Below are positions 5,349 through 61,736 of a DNA stretch of 64,000 nucleotides, in pieces (position 1 is the stretch's first letter; the number at the start of each line of letters is the position of its first letter). Under the pieces are notes generated by a model. The model saw nothing but the letters and a program-made list of their open reading frames with translations. It made no database searches and had not been told where the DNA came from. This DNA is from Hyphomicrobiales bacterium. GTDB taxonomy: Bacteria > Pseudomonadota > Alphaproteobacteria > Rhizobiales > Rhodobiaceae. The DNA is taken from NCBI GenBank assembly GCA_002869065.1, contig PKTR01000001.1, positions 115,118 to 179,117 on the forward strand, written 5' to 3'. Made by a program: the position numbers and the translations under genes.

Positions 5349-6872
5349 ATGAGTGACAATTTGAACCGCAAATACGGCTGGACCGCCCGCTTGATGCCGC
5401 GCACCAAGACGGTGCTGATGGCGAGCGCGCTTGCCATCGGCATGACCGGTGTCATTGCCGGCCAGTCGGTTCTGTTCACCGGCGACAGCGCCCAGGCCGA
5501 GCAGATAATTGCCGCGACCGCGCCGGCGAGTTTCGCCGATTTGGTCGAGACGGTCTCTCCCGCCGTCGTATCCATCCGCGTCAAGGCGCAGGCCAAGACC
5601 GAACAGTCCTTCTTCGAAGGCATGCCCGACATCCCGCGCGGTCACCCGCTCGAGCGTTTCTTCCGCCGCTTCGGCGAGGAAGGCCCGCGCGGTTTCCAGA
5701 ATCATCCGCGCCGCAAGCGTCCGTTCACCCAGGCGCAGGGCTCCGGCTTTTTCATCTCTGCCGATGGCTATGCGGTGACCAACAATCACGTCGTCGAAAA
5801 CGCCGAAGAGGTGACCGTCACCACCAACAGCGGCAAGGAATACACCGCCAAGGTGATCGGCTCCGACGAGAAGACCGACCTCGCGCTGATCAAGGTCGAA
5901 GGCAACGGCGACTTCCCGCATGTGAATTTCGCCGATGAGGACATTCGCGTCGGCGACTGGGTCGTTGCCGTCGGCAATCCGTTCGGCCTCGGTGGCACCG
6001 TCACCGCCGGCATCGTTTCGGCCCGCGGCCGCGACATCGGCGCCGGCCCGTATGACGACTTCATCCAGCTCGACGCCCCGATCAACCGCGGCAACTCCGG
6101 CGGTCCGACCTTCAATCTGAAGGGTAAGGTCGTCGGCGTGAACACCGCGATCTTCTCGCCGTCGGGCGGCTCGGTCGGCATCGGCTTTGCCATTCCCGCT
6201 TCGACCGCCAAGCAGATCATCGACGATCTGAAGGACGACGGTAAGGTCGTGCGCGGCTGGCTCGGCGTCCACATTCAGACCGTCACCGACGACATCGCCG
6301 AAGGTCTCGGCCTTGACGAGGCAAGCGGCGCGCTGGTCTCCGAACCGCAGGCCGGTGGCCCGGCCCGCAAGGCCGGCATCAAGTCGGGCGACGTCATCGT
6401 CTCCGTCGACGGAAAGAAGGTCGACTCGGCCAAGGAACTCGCCCGCCGCATCGCCGGCTACGCCCCTGGCTCCGAAGTCGAGATCGGCCTTCTCCGCGAT
6501 GGTGGCGATACGACCATCACCGTTACGCTCGGCAAGCTGACCGACGCTGGCAAGGGTGGCACTCCTGCCGAGGAGGTCGATCCGTCCGACCTTGATCAGC
6601 TCGGCCTGGTGCTTGCGCCGGCATCGTCCGTCGCCGGCGCCGGCGACGAGGGTGTCGCGGTTACCAATGTCGACCCGTCCGGTCCTGCCGCCGAACGCGG
6701 AATCCGCACTGGCGATATCATTCTCGAGGTCGGCGGCAAGCCGGTTTCGACGCCGGACGATGTCCTCGCCGCCCTTGCGGCTTCCGAGAAGAGCGGCCGC
6801 AACGCGACCCTCCTTCGGGTGCGCACCGGCGACGCCACGCGCTTCGTCGCGCTTCCGGTTTCGCGCGGTTAA
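5349..6872 (+). CDS. degP: DegP/HtrA (Do-family) periplasmic serine protease
   Basis: Periplasmic protease and chaperone that degrades misfolded envelope proteins. The 507-residue protein has an N-terminal signal or anchor sequence (hydrophobic about residues 22-43), a trypsin-like domain with the complete catalytic triad His147 (TNNHVVENA), Asp177 (KTDLALI) and Ser250 (RGNSGGPTF), and two PDZ domains (about 302-385 and 415-500). Length matches the two-PDZ Do family. It precedes a two-component pair and is closed by a strong terminator, so it seems to be its own transcription unit. In rhizobia this gene often follows the ccm/cyc genes, as it nearly does here. Confidence 0.95.
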   Translation: MSDNLNRKYGWTARLMPRTKTVLMASALAIGMTGVIAGQSVLFTGDSAQAEQIIAATAPASFADLVETVSPAVVSIRVKAQAKTEQSFFEGMPDIPRGHPLERFFRRFGEEGPRGFQNHPRRKRPFTQAQGSGFFISADGYAVTNNHVVENAEEVTVTTNSGKEYTAKVIGSDEKTDLALIKVEGNGDFPHVNFADEDIRVGDWVVAVGNPFGLGGTVTAGIVSARGRDIGAGPYDDFIQLDAPINRGNSGGPTFNLKGKVVGVNTAIFSPSGGSVGIGFAIPASTAKQIIDDLKDDGKVVRGWLGVHIQTVTDDIAEGLGLDEASGALVSEPQAGGPARKAGIKSGDVIVSVDGKKVDSAKELARRIAGYAPGSEVEIGLLRDGGDTTITVTLGKLTDAGKGGTPAEEVDPSDLDQLGLVLAPASSVAGAGDEGVAVTNVDPSGPAAERGIRTGDIILEVGGKPVSTPDDVLAALAASEKSGRNATLLRVRTGDATRFVALPVSRG

Positions 6873-6936
6873 CCCGACCCCGAAACCGAAGTACCCAATG
6901 ACCGGGCCTCTAGCCCCCGACCGGTCAGGGTAGACG

Positions 6937-6978
6937 GACGGCAGGCCGCCCCCATCCGGCCTGCCGTCTTCGTTTTTT
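6937..6978 (+). terminator. Rho-independent terminator after degP
   Basis: A perfect 12-base stem GACGGCAGGCCG/CGGCCTGCCGTC (6937-6948 and 6957-6968) with an 8-base loop is followed by TTCGTTTTTT. It sits 65 bases after the degP stop and 16 bases before the response regulator start. Confidence 0.93.
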
Positions 6979-6993
6979 GCTATGGTGGCAATT

Positions 6994-7674
6994 ATGCGAA
7001 TCCTGGTGATCGAAGACGACCGCGAAGCCTCGGCCTATCTCGTCAAAGCCTTGAAGGAAGCGGGACATATCTGTGAGCAGGCCTTCACTGGCGATGAGGG
7101 CTGGCACATGGCGAGCGAGGGCGGTTACGACGTCCTCGTGGTCGACCGGATGTTGCCGGGCCGAGACGGGCTGTCCATCGTCCGCGACCTGCGCGCCAGG
7201 AGCGACGATACGCCAGCGCTGATCCTGTCCGCGCTCGGACAGGTCGATGACCGCGTCACTGGGCTGAGAGCCGGCGGTGACGACTATCTCGCCAAACCTT
7301 ACGCGCTGACCGAGCTGCTCGCCCGCATCGAGGCGCTCGCCCGCCGCCACAAGCCGGGCGAGGGCGAGATGACCTACCGGGTCGGCGATCTCGAACTCGA
7401 CCGCCTGTCACACACGGTGCGCCGCGCCGGCGACGACATTCCGCTGCAACCGCGCGAGTTCCGCCTGCTCGAGTTCCTCATGAAGAACGCCGGCCAGGTC
7501 GTCACCCGCACCATGCTGCTGGAAAACGTCTGGGACTATCATTTCGATCCCCAGACCAACGTTATCGACGTGCACATGTCGCGGCTGCGCGGCAAGATCG
7601 ACAAGGGTTTCGACACACCGCTCATCCACACGGTGCGCGGCGCAGGGTATGTGATCCGTGACGGCGTTCGGTAA
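6994..7674 (+). CDS. OmpR-family response regulator
   Basis: DNA-binding response regulator of 226 residues (an in-frame start four codons earlier is possible; the MRILVIEDD start matches the family). The receiver domain has the acidic pair Glu7/Asp8/Asp9, phosphoacceptor Asp51 (VVDRMLPG) and the lysine in AKPY. A winged-helix OmpR/PhoB domain follows (about residues 125-222), ending LIHTVRGAGYVIRDG. It overlaps the downstream histidine kinase gene by 17 bases, so the two are translationally coupled. The target genes are unknown; rhizobial relatives sit in the same place between degP and glnE. Confidence 0.93.
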   Translation: MRILVIEDDREASAYLVKALKEAGHICEQAFTGDEGWHMASEGGYDVLVVDRMLPGRDGLSIVRDLRARSDDTPALILSALGQVDDRVTGLRAGGDDYLAKPYALTELLARIEALARRHKPGEGEMTYRVGDLELDRLSHTVRRAGDDIPLQPREFRLLEFLMKNAGQVVTRTMLLENVWDYHFDPQTNVIDVHMSRLRGKIDKGFDTPLIHTVRGAGYVIRDGVR

Positions 7675-9067
7675 ACTGTTCCGCACCACCGCGTTCAAGC
7701 TCTCCATCGCCTATCTGGCGGTGTTCTCGGCCTTTGCCGCCTTTCTCATCATCTACATCACCTACAACACCGGCGAGCTTTTGAACCGCAAGCTCCAGGA
7801 GAGCATCGATCAGGAGCTGCTGACGATCGCCGAGCAGTACGAACGCGCCGGCATACGCCGCGTGACGCGCATGATCGACCACATGTCGCGTCGTCCCGGC
7901 GCCGGGCTCTATCTGCTCACCGACATCGCGGGAAATCCGATCGCCGGCAATGTCGAAAGCCTGCCGACCGCCATGCTCGACGATCTCGGCACCAAGTCGC
8001 GCCCGGTGCCATATTCTCGGCTCGATGGCGATGTCGATGATGAGCATTTCGCCATCGCCCGGGTGCTCGTTCTTCCCGGCGGCTGGCGGGTCATGGTCGG
8101 TCGCGACGTCGGCGAGCGCGAGGAATTTCGCGAGATCATCGGCCGTGCCTTCCGCATTTCCGTCGGTGTCATGCTGGCGCTCGGTCTGTTGAGCTGGGTA
8201 TTCGTCAGCCGACGTGTGCTCAAGCGCATCGATTCGATTTCCGACACCAGCCGCCAGATCATGGCCGGCGACCTTTCCGGTCGCTTGCAGATCACCGGCA
8301 CCGGCGACGAGTTCGACCGGTTGGCCGAGGGCCTCAACGCCATGCTCGCGCGCATCGAGCGGCTGATGGTGGGGCTGAAGGAGGTGTCCGACAATATCGC
8401 CCACGATCTGAAGACGCCGCTGACCCGGCTGCGCAACCGGGTCGAGTCGGCGCTGCGTGGCGAGCCGAGCGAACAGAATTACCGTGAGGCGCTGGAGCAG
8501 ACGATCGAGGAATCCGAGCAACTCATAAAGATCTTCGATGCGCTGCTGAAAATCGCCCGTGTCGAGGCCGATGCCCAGCAGTTGGCGACCGAGCCGCTTG
8601 ATCTGGGCGCAATCGTCGACGACGTCGCCGAGCTCTACGAGCCTGTCGCTGAAGAGGCCGGTTTCGCGCTTTCGGCCACCGTCGGAAGCGATCTGCCAAT
8701 GATCCGTGGAAATCGCGAACTGATCGGCCAGGCATTGGCCAATCTCATCGACAACGCCTTGAAATACGGGCAGTCTGCCGCCGACGACGCGCAATCGACC
8801 GTTGCGATCGGGCTCATGCGCCAGGGAGATGAGCTCGTGCTGTCCGTTGCCGACAAAGGGGCGGGGATCCCCGAAACCGAACGCGACCGGGTCGCCGAGC
8901 GGTTCGTACGGCTTGAGGAAAGCCGCACGCAGCCGGGCTCGGGGCTCGGGCTCAGCCTGGTCAAGGCCGTGGCCCAGATGCATGGCGCCGTTCTTGGTTT
9001 TCTCGACAACGGGCCGGGACTTCGGGTCGAGATGCGCTTCAAGGCGACGAACGGGGATGGCGCATGA
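7658..9067 (+). CDS. Membrane sensor histidine kinase, partner of the preceding regulator
   Basis: Inner-membrane kinase of 469 residues, starting at a GTG inside the regulator's last codons. It has a first membrane helix (about 14-36), a periplasmic sensor loop, a second helix (about 165-183), a HAMP linker, a HisKA domain with His249 in NIAHDLKTPL, and an HATPase domain with N box (LANLIDNALKYG), G1 (DKGAGI) and G2 (GSGLGLSLV) motifs. It overlaps glnE by four bases (ATGA), so regulator, kinase and glnE form one operon. The signal sensed is not evident. Confidence 0.93.
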   Translation: MTAFGKLFRTTAFKLSIAYLAVFSAFAAFLIIYITYNTGELLNRKLQESIDQELLTIAEQYERAGIRRVTRMIDHMSRRPGAGLYLLTDIAGNPIAGNVESLPTAMLDDLGTKSRPVPYSRLDGDVDDEHFAIARVLVLPGGWRVMVGRDVGEREEFREIIGRAFRISVGVMLALGLLSWVFVSRRVLKRIDSISDTSRQIMAGDLSGRLQITGTGDEFDRLAEGLNAMLARIERLMVGLKEVSDNIAHDLKTPLTRLRNRVESALRGEPSEQNYREALEQTIEESEQLIKIFDALLKIARVEADAQQLATEPLDLGAIVDDVAELYEPVAEEAGFALSATVGSDLPMIRGNRELIGQALANLIDNALKYGQSAADDAQSTVAIGLMRQGDELVLSVADKGAGIPETERDRVAERFVRLEESRTQPGSGLGLSLVKAVAQMHGAVLGFLDNGPGLRVEMRFKATNGDGA

Positions 9068-48992: not shown

Positions 48993-49283
48993 TTAGTCGT
49001 GGTGCGCGATTGGCTTGTCGGTGAACACGTAGTCGCGCAGTTCCTTGTCGAAGGTCGGATCCTTGCGGCGGATCCATTCGAGAACCATCGCGGCGTGCTC
49101 TTTTTCCTCGTCACGATTGTGCGCGAGAATGGCCTTGAGTTCGTCGTCCTTGCAGGCGTCGACACGCTGGTTGTACCAGTCGACGGCCTCAAGCTCCTCC
49201 ATCAGGGAAACGATGGCGCGGTGCATGTCGCGCGTCTCGTCGGAAAGCTCCGAAATCGGTTCGTGATAGCCTTCACTCGCCAT
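48993..49283 (-). CDS. Encapsulated-ferritin-type (EncFtn) protein without cargo tag
   Basis: A 96-residue two-helix ferroxidase very close to the Rhodospirillum EncFtn family: AIVSLMEELEAVDWYNQRVDA and ILAHNRDEEKEHAAMVLEW. Metal-binding candidates are Glu29/Glu32 in the first helix and Glu59, Glu62 and His63 in the second; EncFtn forms a decamer with the iron site at a subunit interface. It ends at KPIAHHD and so lacks the C-terminal peptide that targets EncFtn into encapsulin. No encapsulin gene adjoins it. It is divergent from a DUF2325 gene with a Fur-box-like palindrome between them. Confidence 0.9.
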   Translation of the reverse strand: MASEGYHEPISELSDETRDMHRAIVSLMEELEAVDWYNQRVDACKDDELKAILAHNRDEEKEHAAMVLEWIRRKDPTFDKELRDYVFTDKPIAHHD

Positions 49284-49463
49284 GGGAAACTCCTTTCGCT
49301 GAAAGCGTCTCGGGAAGATGTCCCTCTGTGTCTACCACCCGGGATGGCGGCGGAAAAGGGACGTAGATGGGCGGAACGTCGCGGCCCCGCAGGCGCGACG
49401 AAGTTCATAAGGGAAAGCTAGTTCGCGGGGGCGTTTCGGCAATCTCTTGGCTCTAATTGACAA

Positions 49464-49478
49464 TGCAAATCATTCGCA
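49464..49478. promoter_or_regulatory. Fur-box-like palindrome
   Basis: TGCAAATCATTCGCA, within AATGCAAATCATTCGCAATA, matches alphaproteobacterial Fur/Mur-type boxes and resembles the classical Fur box centre. It lies 41 bases before the DUF2325 start and 180 bases upstream of the EncFtn start. Iron (or manganese) control of one or both genes is inferred. Confidence 0.65.
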
Positions 49479-49518
49479 ATAAGACTCCAGCGTGACACGG
49501 ACAGCAGGGGGAAGGCTC

Positions 49519-50703
49519 ATGTGCGAATGTGAGGCGAAGACGGTACCGGGCAGCGCCGATGCTGCTGGCGGCCGGCTCAAACTGTGGGAATTCACCGATC
49601 GCGCGCACTGTTCGGTGATCGGAACCTGTCTCTCCGCAGTAGACCTGAGAAAGCTGGCCGCGAAGCTCCGCCTGACCTTTGACGACGATGCCAACGACTA
49701 TGACGTGCACGCCTATTTCGTGAAGGCCGCAGCCGACGACAGTCAGGAAGCCCGCGCGATCCACAAGCTGCTGGACACCCGTTTTGCCGGCATCCTGCGC
49801 ATCGTCGCCCGCCTGCGCGGGGATCGGGCGTTGGCGGAGCGTTGGGAAGAGATGAAAGCGAAGGGGCAGATCGCCGGCGCCTTTTGGGCGCTGATGACCC
49901 ATCGCCACGTTTCAACGGAGATCCGCGCACGCATTTTCGGCGACGTCCACATGCTCTCCCACGAAGTGGGCGCGGCACATGGCCGCCAGGGACGGGAACT
50001 TGCCGGCCTGAAGTCGCAGCTCGAAGATCTGGAAAAACGCCGGGCGCGCGTCGAAGCCGGTCTGCGCGCCAGCATCGCCGAGCGCGATGACCGCATCACT
50101 GGTCTGGAATCGGCGCTGACTGAAGCCCGCGCCAAAGGTGACAGCGGCAGCGGACCCACGACTGAGCACACCTCACGTCGGCGCCGCCACGACGAGAGCA
50201 AGATCCAGCGGGCACTTGAAAGCGCGCGCTACCGGGCACGTGTCGCCGAGGCCGAGATCCGTCTGTTGCGCGATATGCTTGCCCGCGCGCAAGAGGGCGG
50301 TCGCACCGCGCCGCGCACCGTTACCGTCGAGAACTCTGCGTCCGGCCGCGATGTCATGGCCGATGCCCGCCGCCTCGACGGCCACAGCTATCTCTATATC
50401 GGTGGCCGCGACAACCAGTTCGCCTATCTGCGCGATGTCGCCGGGCTTTTCGGCGTCGAGCTGATCCACCACGATGGCGGGCTGACCGATGCGATCACCC
50501 GCATCGACGATGTGCTGCCCTCGGTTGAATGCGTGTTGTGCCCGATCAATTGCGTCAGCCACGATGCCTGCCAGCGCGCAAAGAGCGGCTGCAAGAAGCA
50601 CGGCAAGACTTTCATGCCGCTGCGTAGTGCGAGCAAGACCTCGCTGCGCGACGCGCTGATTTCGTTGATGGTTGGCCCCGGCGGGCCTGGCGCGGCCGAA
50701 TAG
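49519..50703 (+). CDS. DUF2325 protein with coiled coil, probably iron-regulated
   Basis: A 394-residue protein. The N-terminal half (about 1-150) is helical and unrecognised; about 150-265 is a predicted coiled coil rich in Arg/Glu; the C-terminal ~105 residues form a DUF2325 domain (YLYIGGRDNQFAYLRDVAGL, HHDGGLTDAITRIDDVLP) with cysteines in ECVLCPINCVSHDACQRAKSGC. The function of DUF2325 is not established. The ATG at MCECEAK is preferred for GGGGGAAGG upstream. A Fur-box-like site precedes it and an EncFtn gene is divergent, suggesting an iron or metal role. Confidence 0.82.
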   Translation: MCECEAKTVPGSADAAGGRLKLWEFTDRAHCSVIGTCLSAVDLRKLAAKLRLTFDDDANDYDVHAYFVKAAADDSQEARAIHKLLDTRFAGILRIVARLRGDRALAERWEEMKAKGQIAGAFWALMTHRHVSTEIRARIFGDVHMLSHEVGAAHGRQGRELAGLKSQLEDLEKRRARVEAGLRASIAERDDRITGLESALTEARAKGDSGSGPTTEHTSRRRRHDESKIQRALESARYRARVAEAEIRLLRDMLARAQEGGRTAPRTVTVENSASGRDVMADARRLDGHSYLYIGGRDNQFAYLRDVAGLFGVELIHHDGGLTDAITRIDDVLPSVECVLCPINCVSHDACQRAKSGCKKHGKTFMPLRSASKTSLRDALISLMVGPGGPGAAE

Positions 50704-55670: not shown

Positions 55671-56012
55671 ATGCACGAAATGGCGATCTGCGAGAGTATT
55701 CTCGACATTCTCAAGGAGCAGGCCGTCGCGCAGAAGTTCTCGCGTGTCACCCGCGTTTGTCTGGAGATCGGCCCGTTTTCGGGCGTCGAGATCGAGGCGC
55801 TGAAATTCGGGTTCGATGTCGTCATCAACGGCTCGCTCGCCGAAGGGGCGGCCCTTGAGATCATCGAGACGCCGGCCACGGCCTGGTGCATGGCCTGCGC
55901 CCGTTCGGTGAGCGTGAAGGAACGTTTCGATCCGTGCCCGCATTGCGGCGAGCATCAATTGCAGCTTACCGGCGGCGAGGAACTTCGGATCAAGGAACTG
56001 GAGGTCGACTGA
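55671..56012 (+). CDS. hypA: Hydrogenase nickel insertion protein HypA
   Basis: Nickel metallochaperone of 113 residues for [NiFe]-hydrogenase (and often urease). It has the invariant N-terminus MHEMAIC, with His2 as nickel ligand, and a zinc site of two CxxC pairs: Cys73/Cys76 (CMAC) and Cys89/Cys92 (CPHC). It opens the hyp operon and its stop shares a base with the hypB start. The 137 bases upstream show no clear sigma-54 or FNR site. Confidence 0.96.
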
Positions 56013-56962
56013 TGTGCAAGGTTTGCGGATGCGGTGAGGGGGAAGTCCGCATCGAGGGTGCGGCCGTGGACCATGATCATGGTCATCACCATGACCAAGG
56101 ACACGAGCACCATCACCACCATGAACACGAGCATGGGCATCATCACCATCACGAACATGGCCATGATCATCATCATGGAGACCATGATCACGGCCACGGG
56201 CACCAACATCACGAGGATGGACTGCACGATTACGGGCAAGGACCGGCTGGCGGCGTGGTGCCGGGCATGAGCCAGGGCCGGATGATCCAGATCGAGCAGG
56301 ACATCCTGTCGAAGAACAACGCCTATGCGGCGGCCAATCGCGGCTTCTTCGCCGATCATGGCGTGCTGGCGCTGAACCTCGTCTCGAGCCCTGGATCCGG
56401 CAAGACCTCACTGCTGGTCAAGACCATCGAGATGCTGGCCGAGCGCCGCAAATGCTACGTCATCGAGGGCGATCAACAGACCTCGAACGACGCCGACCGC
56501 ATCCGCGCCACCGGCGCCCCGGCGATCCAGGTTAACACCGGCAAGGGCTGCCACCTCGACGGCCACATGGTCGGCCACGCCATCGACCATCTGACGCCGC
56601 AGGACGGCGGCATCGTCTTCATCGAGAATGTCGGCAATCTCGTCTGTCCGGCCGGCTTCGACCTTGGCGAGGCGCACAAGGTGGCGATCCTCTCGGTCAC
56701 CGAGGGCGATGACAAGCCGCTGAAATATCCCGACATCTTCGCCGCGTCCGGGCTCGTTCTGCTGAACAAGATCGATCTTCTGCCCTATGTCGATTTCGAT
56801 GTCGACGCGGCCATCGCCAATGCCCGCAAGGTCAATCCGGCGATCAAGGTGCTGAAAGTGTCGGCGCGCAGCGGCGAGGGCATGGAAAACTGGATCGCCT
56901 GGATCGAGGCGGCCCGCGCGATGGAGCTTGCCGGCCACGCGCTCGGCAACGCGGCGGAATAG
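56012..56962 (+). CDS. hypB: Hydrogenase nickel incorporation GTPase HypB
   Basis: GTPase that drives nickel delivery with HypA. The 316-residue protein starts [11 protein letters not shown], the N-terminal cysteine nickel site, then has a remarkable histidine-rich stretch (about residues 24-75, roughly 30 His), a nickel store as in rhizobial HypB. The G domain follows: P-loop [11 protein letters not shown], the metal residues in [23 protein letters not shown], and the NKID motif [10 protein letters not shown]. It overlaps hypA by one base and is followed by hypC after 10 bases. Confidence 0.97.
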
Positions 56963-56972
56963 GGAGCGGCCC

Positions 56973-57227
56973 ATGTGCCTTGCCATTCCGGCCCGCGTGG
57001 TCGCGCTCGAAGCTGACGATATGGCCGTTGTCGCGCTCGACGGCGTGCGCAAGCGCATCTCGGTCGCGCTGCTAGACGAGGTGTCGGAAGGCGACTATGT
57101 GCTCATCCATGTCGGCTATGCGCTGCACACGCTGAGCCCGGAAGAGGCGCAGCGCACGCTTGAGCTGATGGCCGAAGCCGGCCTCCTGAAAGAGAGCCTC
57201 GACGAGTTCGCAGGAGGCGCGGCATGA
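56973..57227 (+). CDS. hypC: Hydrogenase maturation chaperone HypC
   Basis: An 84-residue chaperone starting MCLAIPARVV. Cys2 carries the Fe(CN)2CO precursor and hands it with HypD to the hydrogenase large subunit. The sequence keeps the family's small beta-barrel core (VALDGVRKRISVALLDEV) and HVGYALHTLSPEEAQ. The ATG at MCLAIP is clear, with AGGGAG before it. It overlaps hypD by four bases. Confidence 0.96.
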   Translation: MCLAIPARVVALEADDMAVVALDGVRKRISVALLDEVSEGDYVLIHVGYALHTLSPEEAQRTLELMAEAGLLKESLDEFAGGAA

Positions 57228-58378
57228 AATATGTCGACGAGTTCCGCGACCGGGCGCTCGCCGAAACGCTTGCCGCCGCAATCGCCAGGGAAGCCGACAC
57301 CGGCCGCGACTATCATCTGATGGAGTTCTGCGGCGGCCACACCCATGCGATCTTTCGCTATGGCGTGCAGGATCTGATGCCGGAAAATGTCGACTTCGTG
57401 CATGGCCCCGGCTGCCCGGTCTGCGTGTTGCCGGTGCGCCGGCTTGATGATGCGGTCGAGCTCGCCGAACGCCACGGCGTCATCCTGTGCTCCTATGGCG
57501 ACATGATGCGCGTGCCGGGCACCAAGCAGCGCAGCCTCATCAAGGCGAAGGCCGACGGCGCCGACGTCCGCATGATCTATTCGACCCTCGATGCGCTGAA
57601 GATTGCCCGTGAGAACCCCGACCGGCAGGTCGTGTTCTTCGCTATCGGCTTCGAGACGACAACCCCGCCGAGCGCGGTCGCGATCCGTCAGGCCGAGGCC
57701 GAGGGGCTGACGAATTTCTCCGTCTTCAGCAACCACGTGCTCACCCCGGCGGCGATCCGCCATATCCTCGATTCACCCGAGGTGAAGGACTACGGCACGG
57801 TGCAGATCGACGGCTTCTTCGGTCCGTCCCACGTCAGTTCGGTGATCGGCTCGAAGCCCTACGAGCCCTTTGCCGAAGCCTTCGAAAAGCCCGTCGTTAT
57901 CGCCGGGTTCGAACCGCTCGACGTGATGCAGTCGGCGCTGATGTTGATCCGCCAGATCAACGACGGACGCCACGAGGTCGAGAACCAGTACACCCGCGTG
58001 GTCACCCGCGAGGGCAACCGGAAGGCGCAGGCACTAGTTGACGAGGTGTTCGCGACCCGTGAGACCTTCGAATGGCGCGGCCTCGGTTTCGTGCCGAACA
58101 GCGCGCTGCGCATTCGCGACCGCTACGCCGCCTTCGACGCCGAAAAGCGCTTCGAAATCTCGGAAAAGGCCTCGCGCGAGGTGAAGTCCTGCGAGTGCCC
58201 GGCGATCCTGCGCGGGGTGAAGAAGCCGACCGACTGCAAACTGTTCGGCACCGTGTGCACGCCGGACAACCCGATGGGCTCGTGCATGGTGTCGTCGGAA
58301 GGGGCCTGCGCCGCCTACTGGACCTATGGCCGCTTCCGCGACGGCGCCAACCGCAGCGCGGAGGTGCCGGCGGCATGA
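57224..58378 (+). CDS. hypD: Hydrogenase maturation factor HypD
   Basis: Iron-sulfur scaffold of 384 residues on which the Fe(CN)2CO unit is assembled with HypC. It has the family motifs MEFCGGHTHAI, GPGCPVCVLP and GFETTTPPSAVAI, and a C-terminal set of cysteines (CECPAILRG, CKLFGTVC, MGSCMVSSEGACAAY) that hold the [4Fe-4S] cluster. Coupled on both sides to hypC and hypE by 4-base overlaps. Length is normal. Confidence 0.97.
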   Translation: MKYVDEFRDRALAETLAAAIAREADTGRDYHLMEFCGGHTHAIFRYGVQDLMPENVDFVHGPGCPVCVLPVRRLDDAVELAERHGVILCSYGDMMRVPGTKQRSLIKAKADGADVRMIYSTLDALKIARENPDRQVVFFAIGFETTTPPSAVAIRQAEAEGLTNFSVFSNHVLTPAAIRHILDSPEVKDYGTVQIDGFFGPSHVSSVIGSKPYEPFAEAFEKPVVIAGFEPLDVMQSALMLIRQINDGRHEVENQYTRVVTREGNRKAQALVDEVFATRETFEWRGLGFVPNSALRIRDRYAAFDAEKRFEISEKASREVKSCECPAILRGVKKPTDCKLFGTVCTPDNPMGSCMVSSEGACAAYWTYGRFRDGANRSAEVPAA

Positions 58379-59412
58379 CCGCTCACGACAAGGCTTTGAC
58401 CAAACGCTCAGGCGCCGTCGACATGACACATGGCGGCGGTGGCCGCGCCATGGCCGACCTCATCCGCGATCTGTTCCAGCGCCATCTTGGCAACCCGATC
58501 CTCGATCAGGGCAACGACGCCGCGCTCGTCGAGGTGCCGCCCGGACGGCTGGTGATGTCGACGGACGGACACGTCATCGCGCCGCTGTTCTTTCCCGGCG
58601 GCGATATCGGCTCGCTCTCGGTGCACGGCACGCTGAACGATGTCGCGATGGCCGGCGCCCGCCCGCTCTATCTCACCGTCGGTTTCATCCTTGAGGAGGG
58701 CTATCCGCTCGCCGATCTCGAACGCATCGTGATGTCGATGGCCGAGGCCGCGACCAGGGCCGGCGTGCCGATTGTCACCGGTGACACCAAGGTGGTCGAA
58801 AAGGGCAAGGGCGACGGCGTATTCATCACCACGACGGGCCTTGGCGTGGTGCCAGATGGCGTGCGCGTGTCCGCCGACCGTGCCGTGCCGGGTCAGGCGA
58901 TCCTCCTGTCCGGCTCGATCGGCGACCATGGCGTCGCCATCCTGTCGAAGCGCGAGAACCTCGAATTCGAGACCGAAATTTGTTCCGACAGCGCCGCACT
59001 CCACACCCTCGTCGCCGACATGATCGCCGCCGTGCCTGACATCGCGGTTCTGCGCGATCCGACCCGCGGCGGGCTTGCCGCGACGCTGAACGAGATCGCC
59101 CGCACCGCCCGCGTCGGCATGATGCTCGACGAGACGGCCATCCCCGTGAAACCCGACGTCTCGGCGGCCTGCGAATTGCTCGGCCTCGATCCGCTCTATG
59201 TCGCCAATGAAGGCAAGCTCGTCTGCCTGTGTGCAGCCGACGATGCCGACAGGCTCGTCGACATCATGCACGCCCATCCGCTCGGCCGCGACGCTGCCGT
59301 GATCGGTTCGGTGATCGAGGATCCGCACGGCCTCGTGCAGATGCGCACGTCGTTCGGTGGCGCCCGCGTCGTCGACTGGCTGTCCGGCGAGCAGCTTCCG
59401 CGGATCTGCTGA
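58375..59412 (+). CDS. hypE: Hydrogenase maturation factor HypE
   Basis: A 345-residue PurM-like enzyme that dehydrates a carbamoyl group on its own C-terminal cysteine to thiocyanate, the source of the cyanide ligands. It begins with MTHGGGGRAM and ends exactly in PRIC, so the essential terminal Cys345 is intact. ATP-binding parts HGTLNDVAMAGARPLYLTV and DTKVVEKGKGDG are present. It overlaps hypD by four bases and is followed by hypF after five. Confidence 0.97.
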   Translation: MTAHDKALTKRSGAVDMTHGGGGRAMADLIRDLFQRHLGNPILDQGNDAALVEVPPGRLVMSTDGHVIAPLFFPGGDIGSLSVHGTLNDVAMAGARPLYLTVGFILEEGYPLADLERIVMSMAEAATRAGVPIVTGDTKVVEKGKGDGVFITTTGLGVVPDGVRVSADRAVPGQAILLSGSIGDHGVAILSKRENLEFETEICSDSAALHTLVADMIAAVPDIAVLRDPTRGGLAATLNEIARTARVGMMLDETAIPVKPDVSAACELLGLDPLYVANEGKLVCLCAADDADRLVDIMHAHPLGRDAAVIGSVIEDPHGLVQMRTSFGGARVVDWLSGEQLPRIC

Positions 59413-59417
59413 AAGCG

Positions 59418-61736
59418 ATGGCAGGCGGATTGGATCCCACAGTCGGCCGCCGTATCCGCGTGCGCGGCCTCGTGCAGGGCGTCGGCTTTCGCCCGCACGT
59501 CTGGCGGCTCGCTCATTATGAAAACCTCTGCGGCCATGTGCTGAACGATGGTGCCGGCGTCGAGATCGTCGCCTGGGGTAAAGAGCCCGCGCTCGAACGT
59601 TTCCTCGACCGGCTGAAGATCGAAGCGCCGCCGCTGGCGCGCGTCGACGGCATCGACTGGACGCGGCTCGCCGAGGACCCGCAGCGGGACGATTTCATCA
59701 TCGCCGAAAGCGGGGAGGGGGCCGTCTCGACAGGCGTTGTGCCCGACGCCGCGACGTGCCCCGCGTGCCTTGCCGACACACTCGATCCGGCCAACCGCCG
59801 CTATCGCTATCCTTTCACCAATTGCACCCATTGTGGCCCGCGGCTCTCCATCGTGCAGGCGATCCCTTATGACCGTGCGTCGACCTCGATGAGCGTCTTT
59901 GCAATGTGCGAGGACTGCGCGCGGGAATATGGCGACCCCGCCGACCGCCGCTTCCACGCCCAGCCGAATGCCTGCCCGGTCTGCGGCCCGCAGATCTGGC
60001 TTGAAGACGGCGAGGGCAACCGCGTCGAGGGTGACACCATCGACGTCACCGCGCGGCTGATCGAAGAAGGCCGCATCGTCGCGATCAAGGGTATCGGCGG
60101 CTTTCATCTCGCCTGCGACGCGACCAGCGGCGAAGCCGTCGCCGAGCTGCGCCGCCGCAAGCGCCGCGACGCCAAACCGCTCGCCGTGATGGTGCGCGAT
60201 GTCGAACAGGCGCGGCGCTACTGCCATGTCGTACCGGAGGAAACCGAGCTGTTCGCCGGCAAGGCCGCGCCCATCGTGCTGCTCTTCGCCGAAGGGGGAG
60301 CGCTGGCCGACGGCATCGCGCCGCGTCAGGACCAGATCGGCGTCATGCTGCCTTACACACCGCTGCACCATCTGCTGATGCGCGCGCTCGACCGGCCCAT
60401 CGTGCTGACCTCCGGCAATCTTTCCGAGGAACCGCAGGTTATCGACAACGACGCGGCACGCGAACGCCTTGCCGGCATTGCCGATTCCTGGCTGATGCAT
60501 GACCGCGATATCGTCAACCGGCTGGATGACTCGGTGGTGCGGCTCGATTCCGGAGGGCCAACGGTGCTGCGCCGGGCGCGCGGCATGGCGCCGGAGCCGT
60601 TGCGCCTTGCCGAAGGTTTTGCCGACGACGCCCCCGTACTCGCCATGGGTGGCGAGCTGAAGTCGACCTTCTGCCTGATGAAGGACGGACAGGCGATCCT
60701 GTCGCAGCATATCGGCGATCTGGAAGAGGCCGGCACCCACGCCGACTACCGCAAGATGCTGGCGCTCTATCGCGATATCTTCCGCTTCGAGCCGGAGGTG
60801 ATCGCGGTCGATGCTCACCCGGATTATCTCTCGACCCAATGGGGCGAGGCGCTGGCGGCGGAGACCGGCGCGCGCCTCGCGCGGGTCCAGCATCACCACG
60901 CCCATCTCGCCTCCGTTCTCGCCGAGCATGGCATCGAGCCCGGCGACGACCGAACGCTCGGCATCGTGCTCGACGGTCTCGGCCTTGGTGACGACGGCAC
61001 GCTGTGGGGCGGTGAACTGCTGGTCGGCGCCTATTGCAGCAGTGAGCGGGTCGGTCATTTCGCGCCCGTGCAGTTGCCGGGCGGCGCGCAGGCAATGCGC
61101 GAGCCCTGGCGCAACACTGTCGCCCACCTCCATGCGCTCCACGGCGAGGCGTTCCCGGCTGTTCTCGACGGCACGGCGCTTGGCGCGCGCCTTGCCGGAA
61201 AGCCGCTCGGCGTCATTGCTCGGATGATCGCCCAGGGGATCAACGCGCCGCTGTCGTCGTCGGCCGGACGGCTGTTCGATGCGGTGGCTGCTGCGCTTGG
61301 CATCTGCTTCGACCGGCAGAGCTATGAGGGGCAGGCGGCGATGGAGATGGAAGCGCTGGCGCGGCCGCATCTGGCGCATGCCGGTGCCTATCCGCTCGAC
61401 CTCGGCGAAGGGAGCCCGCTGGTGATTTCGTGGGCGCCGCTCTGGGACGCGCTGATCGGCGACCTGAAGGCAGGGGTCGAGCCCGGCATCATCGCCGCCC
61501 GGTTTCATGCAGGTCTCGCCGACGGGCTTGCCACGGCAGCGGGCCGGATCGCCGGCGAAAAGGGGCTTCGCCGCGCGGCCCTGTCAGGCGGCGTGATGCA
61601 GAACCGCATTCTGCTCGCGATGCTGAGCGACAAGCTCGCGCGCGCCGGGCTAGAGGTGCTTGTGCACAATCAGGTGCCGGCCAATGACGGCGGCCTCGCG
61701 CTCGGCCAGGCCGTCGCGGCCCTCAGTCACGGCTGA
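59418..61736 (+). CDS. hypF: Carbamoyltransferase HypF
   Basis: A 772-residue enzyme that makes carbamoyl-adenylate from carbamoyl phosphate and loads HypE. Domains in order: acylphosphatase (RVRGLVQGVGFRPHVWR), two zinc fingers (CPACLADT with NCTHCGPR; CEDCAREYG with ACPVCGP), a YrdC-like domain (KGIGGFHLACDATSG, KPLAVMVRD), and a Kae1-like C-terminal domain with HHHAHLASVLAEHG and the late GGVMQNRILL. All signature motifs are intact. It ends the hypABCDEF operon, nine bases before the convergent purU gene. Confidence 0.96.
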   Translation: MAGGLDPTVGRRIRVRGLVQGVGFRPHVWRLAHYENLCGHVLNDGAGVEIVAWGKEPALERFLDRLKIEAPPLARVDGIDWTRLAEDPQRDDFIIAESGEGAVSTGVVPDAATCPACLADTLDPANRRYRYPFTNCTHCGPRLSIVQAIPYDRASTSMSVFAMCEDCAREYGDPADRRFHAQPNACPVCGPQIWLEDGEGNRVEGDTIDVTARLIEEGRIVAIKGIGGFHLACDATSGEAVAELRRRKRRDAKPLAVMVRDVEQARRYCHVVPEETELFAGKAAPIVLLFAEGGALADGIAPRQDQIGVMLPYTPLHHLLMRALDRPIVLTSGNLSEEPQVIDNDAARERLAGIADSWLMHDRDIVNRLDDSVVRLDSGGPTVLRRARGMAPEPLRLAEGFADDAPVLAMGGELKSTFCLMKDGQAILSQHIGDLEEAGTHADYRKMLALYRDIFRFEPEVIAVDAHPDYLSTQWGEALAAETGARLARVQHHHAHLASVLAEHGIEPGDDRTLGIVLDGLGLGDDGTLWGGELLVGAYCSSERVGHFAPVQLPGGAQAMREPWRNTVAHLHALHGEAFPAVLDGTALGARLAGKPLGVIARMIAQGINAPLSSSAGRLFDAVAAALGICFDRQSYEGQAAMEMEALARPHLAHAGAYPLDLGEGSPLVISWAPLWDALIGDLKAGVEPGIIAARFHAGLADGLATAAGRIAGEKGLRRAALSGGVMQNRILLAMLSDKLARAGLEVLVHNQVPANDGGLALGQAVAALSHG

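Follow-up and report, generated by a model that had tools for sequence, protein, structure and literature searches.

Comparative genomics of a tag-less EncFtn protein argues against family-1 encapsulation and places part of its class in an aerobic-type rubrerythrin cluster

The gene at positions 48993-49283 of the window, the 64,000-nucleotide stretch of DNA analysed here, encodes a ferritin-family protein of the EncFtn type and is a confirmed further member of the known tag-less class (s-FLP, or Non-EncFtn). Presence, absence and adjacency patterns across genomes argue strongly against s-FLP encapsulation by family-1 shells. In a part of the class, the s-FLP gene is located in or beside an aerobic-type rubrerythrin cluster, and this partial operon association is new. 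On balance, we favour the view that s-FLP-class EncFtn is independent of a shell and serves as a free ferroxidase in peroxide and iron stress rather than in bulk storage. The features of the gene are as follows.

48993..49283, minus strand: tag-less EncFtn (s-FLP), 96 aa; ligands E30, E60 and H63; entry site E29/E32; conserved C44
48996..49025, minus strand: C-terminal tail FTDKPIAHHD; shelled relatives have about 20-40 extra residues here, mostly with a GSL-type targeting peptide at the end
49290..49296, minus strand: Shine-Dalgarno-like AAAGGAG, 6 nt before the ATG, assigned from the sequence

The reading frame opens with ATG. It is not a chance frame, since it is conserved among related genomes: 61 were searched, and the gene was found in five others at 78-86% identity and in one at 35%. 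Genome contigs contain at least 586 related stretches, and in each of the best 80 the encoded protein is 94-101 aa long. The closest homologue is gammaproteobacterial, and its 94% identity fits either horizontal transfer or strong conservation. The G+C content of the gene is 58.4%, versus 64.2% for the whole window. EncFtn relatives were detected on 7 of 72,556 plasmid records (41-79% identity); phages and viral contigs gave no EncFtn match. Upstream of 143 homologues, the strongest enrichment was of Shine-Dalgarno-like words. The same motif search found no iron or stress box shared by the homologues, and a common upstream regulatory motif was discarded as a candidate, as only these words and coding words from the 3' end of a neighbouring oxidoreductase gene (RFO, below) were recovered. 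A sigma-70-like promoter was looked for at the window gene and none was found.

Family membership was determined by profile and alignment. The protein scored 152.4 bits with the EncFtn-like profile PF22277 (cut-off 27) and 140.2 bits with TIGR04535 (cut-off 125); PF00210, the profile of classical ferritin, Bfr and Dps, gave no match at E 0.01. In the alignment, E30/E60/H63 correspond to the ferroxidase residues E32/E62/H65 of Rhodospirillum rubrum EncFtn, and E29/E32 correspond to its entry-site E31/E34, with all ligands and the ExxE pattern kept. An earlier sequence-only reading had described an EncFtn core with ferroxidase ligands. The profiles and the three ligands bear this out, the motifs that it quoted (EELEAVDWYNQR and NRDEEKEHAAM) are exact, and the ligand loss that would have counted against it is not seen on alignment. 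The five ferroxidase and entry-site positions are invariant in 66/66 thinned clade-A tag-less rows and likewise in 18 tagged rows. Two other positions separate the groups: position 44 is Cys in 63/66 clade-A tag-less rows versus 5/18 tagged rows, and position 71 is Ile in 62/66 versus Leu in 18/18.

The best solved relative is 3k6c (E 1e-49), the structure of NE0167 of Nitrosomonas europaea, a protein of 95 aa. NE0167 is similarly tag-less, has the same iron ligands, and is 84% identical over the modelled part; it differs at one aromatic position, where its W36 is Leu in the window protein. The predicted model of the window protein contains two long helices and one short helix, versus the four-helix subunit of classical ferritin. 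Its best fold match is also 3k6c, but the superposition is loose, with a TM of only 0.71 and an rmsd of 5.5. The core family and the ferroxidase and entry-site ligands are shared with R. rubrum EncFtn (Rru_A0973, 5DA5, TIGR04535). Unlike that protein, the window gene has neither a tag nor a family-1 shell. The GSL-type targeting peptide is absent and the chain stops at residue 96 with FTDKPIAHHD, just as the earlier reading had stated. A tag-less EncFtn is not a novelty, as the class is already named, widespread and represented by the crystal structure 3K6C. The tag-less homologue group was called Non-EncFtn by He 2016 (PMC5012862). Eren 2024 (PMC11202242) named the class s-FLP and reported that 3k6c forms decamers.

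The same review left unclear whether the s-FLP tail is an encapsulin-binding sequence, and considered encapsulation possible. Only the family-1 shell profile PF04454 was used throughout, and the statements on encapsulin cover family 1. The sequence-only reading had proposed a search of the genome for encapsulin and for a second, tagged EncFtn. PF04454 had 0 matches in the genome (7 contigs, 99.19% complete), while 3/14 control genomes were positive, and the window protein is the only EncFtn encoded. Sample A comprised 397 genomes of the phylum, 25 of them with EncFtn over the cut-off. Both genomes with tagged EncFtn (G184 and G278) have it adjoining encapsulin. Among the 23 tag-less carriers, encapsulin was present in two (G101 and G121), both of a divergent clade and with the genes unlinked, and in 0/19 carriers of the other two clades.

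Sample B comprised 248 genomes from the class to which G278 belongs and overlaps somewhat with sample A (e.g. G278, G412). EncFtn exceeded the cut-off in 73 genomes: a tag-less copy is present in 59, tagged copies alone in 11, and partial matches in three (G499, G519, G565), which were excluded from the 59 and the 11. The protein of G412 (122 aa, Ala/Lys-rich tail, no GSL-type motif, no encapsulin) was counted as tag-less; all other tag-less proteins are 91-105 aa. Encapsulin was found in 15 genomes, and in 15/15 the distance to an EncFtn gene is no more than 170 bp or the two are fused (G656). These shell-adjacent proteins are 116-134 aa with GSL/GPL/GDL/GNL-type ends, except L222, which has no clear motif, and the fusion L225. 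Encapsulin is absent in 55/59 tag-less carriers. The four carriers with encapsulin (G506, G656, G688, G697) each encode a tagged or fused copy as well, and the tag-less gene is located elsewhere than the shell locus. Similarly, only one of the 50 genomes of the closest homologues has encapsulin, and that genome also encodes a tagged EncFtn for it (L086).

These data bear directly on the possibility raised in Eren 2024, namely that s-FLP is loaded into a family-1 or other shell by an undefined signal in its short tail. The window core shares about 60-67% identity with tagged cargo, the tail is conserved, and the absence data cover family-1 shells only. However, no family-1 shell is present here, in 49/50 closest-homologue genomes or in 55/59 tag-less carriers, and wherever a shell exists, its own tagged or fused partner is present. 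Cryptic cargo is thus very improbable. For family-1 shells, the question left in print by Eren 2024 receives a negative answer by comparative genomics. The database name "encapsulin-associated ferritin-like protein" is misleading for many of these genes.

A tree of 95 rows and 89 columns required 5 label changes between tagged and tag-less (bootstrap 4-5), which suggests that the tag was lost or gained several times; the forks are poorly resolved and the root is uncertain, and the tree is not used as proof. Two unusual tagged or fused forms were observed. One tagged, encapsulin-adjacent EncFtn (L166, G547:C86) resembles the tag-less class in its N-terminal half and the tagged class in its C-terminal half. 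In L225 (G656:C227), from a genome of G278's class, the EncFtn core is fused in frame to encapsulin; fusion-FLPs are described as commonly archaeal, and this fusion is an exception.

The link to rubrerythrin was found in the gene neighbourhoods. Among the 80 closest homologues, most lack a conserved neighbour, and the largest neighbour group, besides frames over EncFtn itself, covered 12/80 loci. This suggested an orphan gene, until the rubrerythrin link appeared in other members. The shared 3' end of one common protein was found upstream of several s-FLP genes, with ferritin-domain matches nearby. When the flanks were fetched and clustered, four genes proved to share one strand: rubrerythrin (about 139 aa), the Fe-S oxidoreductase RFO (about 450 aa, carrying a CCG domain), s-FLP, and DUF3501 (about 195 aa). 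The 123 distinct loci, counted after removal of duplicate contigs (L070=L231, L083=L135), contain the order rubrerythrin-RFO-s-FLP-DUF3501 14 times, RFO-s-FLP-DUF3501 three times, rubrerythrin-RFO-DUF3501-s-FLP twice, and, in one locus, a rubrerythrin-like gene alone. Since 39 gamma loci were partly chosen for a nearby match, 19/123 is not an unbiased rate; the unbiased rate is 17/59, the tag-less carriers of sample B with DUF3501 within 1 kb of s-FLP. All 17 pairs are on the same strand, they span 15 families, and in 16 the gap between matches is below 270 bp. None of the 15 encapsulin genomes of this sample has a tagged copy near DUF3501. Same-order relatives of the window organism (G153, G458, G497) also have s-FLP inside the rubrerythrin cluster.

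Co-occurrence follows the same direction. DUF3501 is present in 116/248 sample B genomes, in 43/59 tag-less carriers versus 73/189 others (Fisher p 5e-6, without correction for kinship), and in 31/50 closest-homologue genomes. It is absent from 16/59 tag-less carriers of sample B, from 5/5 clade-A carriers of family f42, and from G234, G316 and G408. The existence of carriers without the trio indicates that the partnership between s-FLP and rubrerythrin is optional, not obligatory. A DUF3501 structure model (pLDDT 91) was dropped as a functional clue, as its sole match was 3fjv, a DUF3501-like protein without known function.

The RBR-RFO-DUF3501 cluster was described by Cardenas 2016 (PMC5114695), whose available text does not contain the word "encapsulin" and whose Figure 3 includes unnamed "hypothetical protein" genes. 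Ferriperoxin was described by Sato 2012 (PMC3317640) as an NADPH/FNR-dependent peroxidase. The rubrerythrin system is given three components in the Acidihalobacter paper (PMC7760498) and in the Andalucia paper (PMC7050145), in the portions available. In these descriptions, as far as the available portions go, s-FLP is not a named member. A literature search, with most subscription journals outside its coverage, returned no paper joining tag-less EncFtn to the aerobic-type rubrerythrin system.

The window organism itself has the trio. On contig 4, irr-rubrerythrin-RFO-DUF3501 occupies L245 4903-8286, with the trio at 5624-8286 and irr, an iron regulator gene, directly upstream. The profile scores are 109 bits for PF02915, 38.5 for PF02754 and 207 for PF12007. 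The s-FLP gene stands alone on contig C1, and the trio on C4 has no s-FLP. Both other sampled genomes of the same genus have s-FLP and no DUF3501. The s-FLP gene is thus a module able to stand alone; from the trio and the relatives, we infer a partnership in this organism. The window neighbours DUF2325, MarR, ECF/anti-sigma and SnoaL were rejected as partners, being conserved in none of 11 loci (5 genus/order relatives). tRNA genes near s-FLP (4 predictions in 3/50 loci) showed no pattern.

The sequence-only reading had asked where the oxidised iron goes, taking as its premise that EncFtn by itself is unable to store iron. The premise agrees with He 2016 (PMC5012862), in which R. rubrum EncFtn oxidises iron without storing it and binds at most 10-15 irons per decamer. 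The question itself is sharpened by two results: recurrent membership of s-FLP in the aerobic rubrerythrin cluster, which speaks for redox defence and not for storage, and a comparison of ferritins. Within sample B, 40 of the 59 tag-less carriers and 40 non-carriers were compared, with a "strong" PF00210 match defined in this analysis as E < 1e-15 and the lists scored by eye. A strong match to ferritin, Bfr or Dps is missing from 13/40 carriers versus 12/40 non-carriers, and ferritin presence was rejected as a correlate of s-FLP. None of these 13 carriers has a family-1 encapsulin. Handing Fe3+ to a ferritin cage therefore cannot be the general answer.

The hand-off is one rival explanation. 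In that explanation, the free ferroxidase detoxifies Fe2+ and passes Fe3+ to a classical ferritin cage, with no special tie to rubrerythrin. The window genome does encode a ferritin-family protein of 170 aa (L002, PF00210 133 bits), and carriers without the rubrerythrin trio exist. However, the near-equal counts show ferritin to be neither required nor replaced, and the operon is left unexplained. We regard the hand-off as unlikely. In another rival explanation, s-FLP is a redox enzyme rather than an iron handler, with a di-iron site that retains its iron, is re-reduced by RFO, and reduces O2 or peroxides as rubrerythrin does. The insertion of s-FLP between RFO and DUF3501, together with the many carriers lacking a strong ferritin match or a shell, fits this explanation. 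The entry site E29/E32, kept in 66/66 tag-less clade-A rows, is instead as expected for an iron substrate, and the relative from R. rubrum was inactive as a peroxidase in one assay, with o-phenylenediamine (He 2016, PMC5012862). A purely redox role is judged to be quite improbable.

The shell-independent ferroxidase that we favour can be outlined as follows. By analogy with 3K6C, the window subunit most likely forms an open D5 decamer; iron-dependent assembly of this ring from dimers, and its ferroxidase activity, would be as in the relatives 3K6C and 5DA5. Fe2+ would enter via E29/E32, reach the two-fold ferroxidase centre and be oxidised there. An open ring lacks a cavity, and s-FLP is therefore most likely a transient catalyst rather than a store, binding iron briefly as a defence against peroxide and ferrous iron. 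About 10-15 Fe3+ ions might be held per ring, the number measured for R. rubrum EncFtn, and then be re-reduced or passed on. The ring would act alongside the aerobic-type rubrerythrin system, with rubrerythrin as the peroxidase, RFO as the Fe-S electron carrier, and DUF3501.

A more specific proposal can be advanced only tentatively. The rubrerythrin system may have tag-less EncFtn as a fourth, optional component that has gone unrecognised. In this scheme, the ring would deal with the ferrous partner in the Fenton pair and rubrerythrin with the peroxide, and RFO would re-reduce the bound iron, with no storage shell needed. If true, a member of the ferritin family would be working in redox cycling rather than storage. 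The operon context provides a concrete, testable pathway for a cage-less ferritin-family protein that often lacks a partner cage.

Several further observations were made. The divergent DUF2325 gene (49492-50703, plus strand) has the near-palindrome TGCAAATCATTCGCA directly upstream, at window positions 49464-49478. The pattern has 2 matches in the window (both strands of one site) versus 0.51 expected, and it resembles alphaproteobacterial Fur-type boxes. The hydrogenase maturation genes hypA, hypB, hypD, hypE and hypF are located at window positions 55671-61736. A divergent tag-less EncFtn-like clade of the same order (L107-L110, genus code g8) is about 40% identical, with proteins of 104 aa; it has no HNRDEEKEH motif and reads NAQSEEFKH or similar. 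Relatives at 43-46% identity are also carried on Bradyrhizobium and Rhodopseudomonas plasmids.
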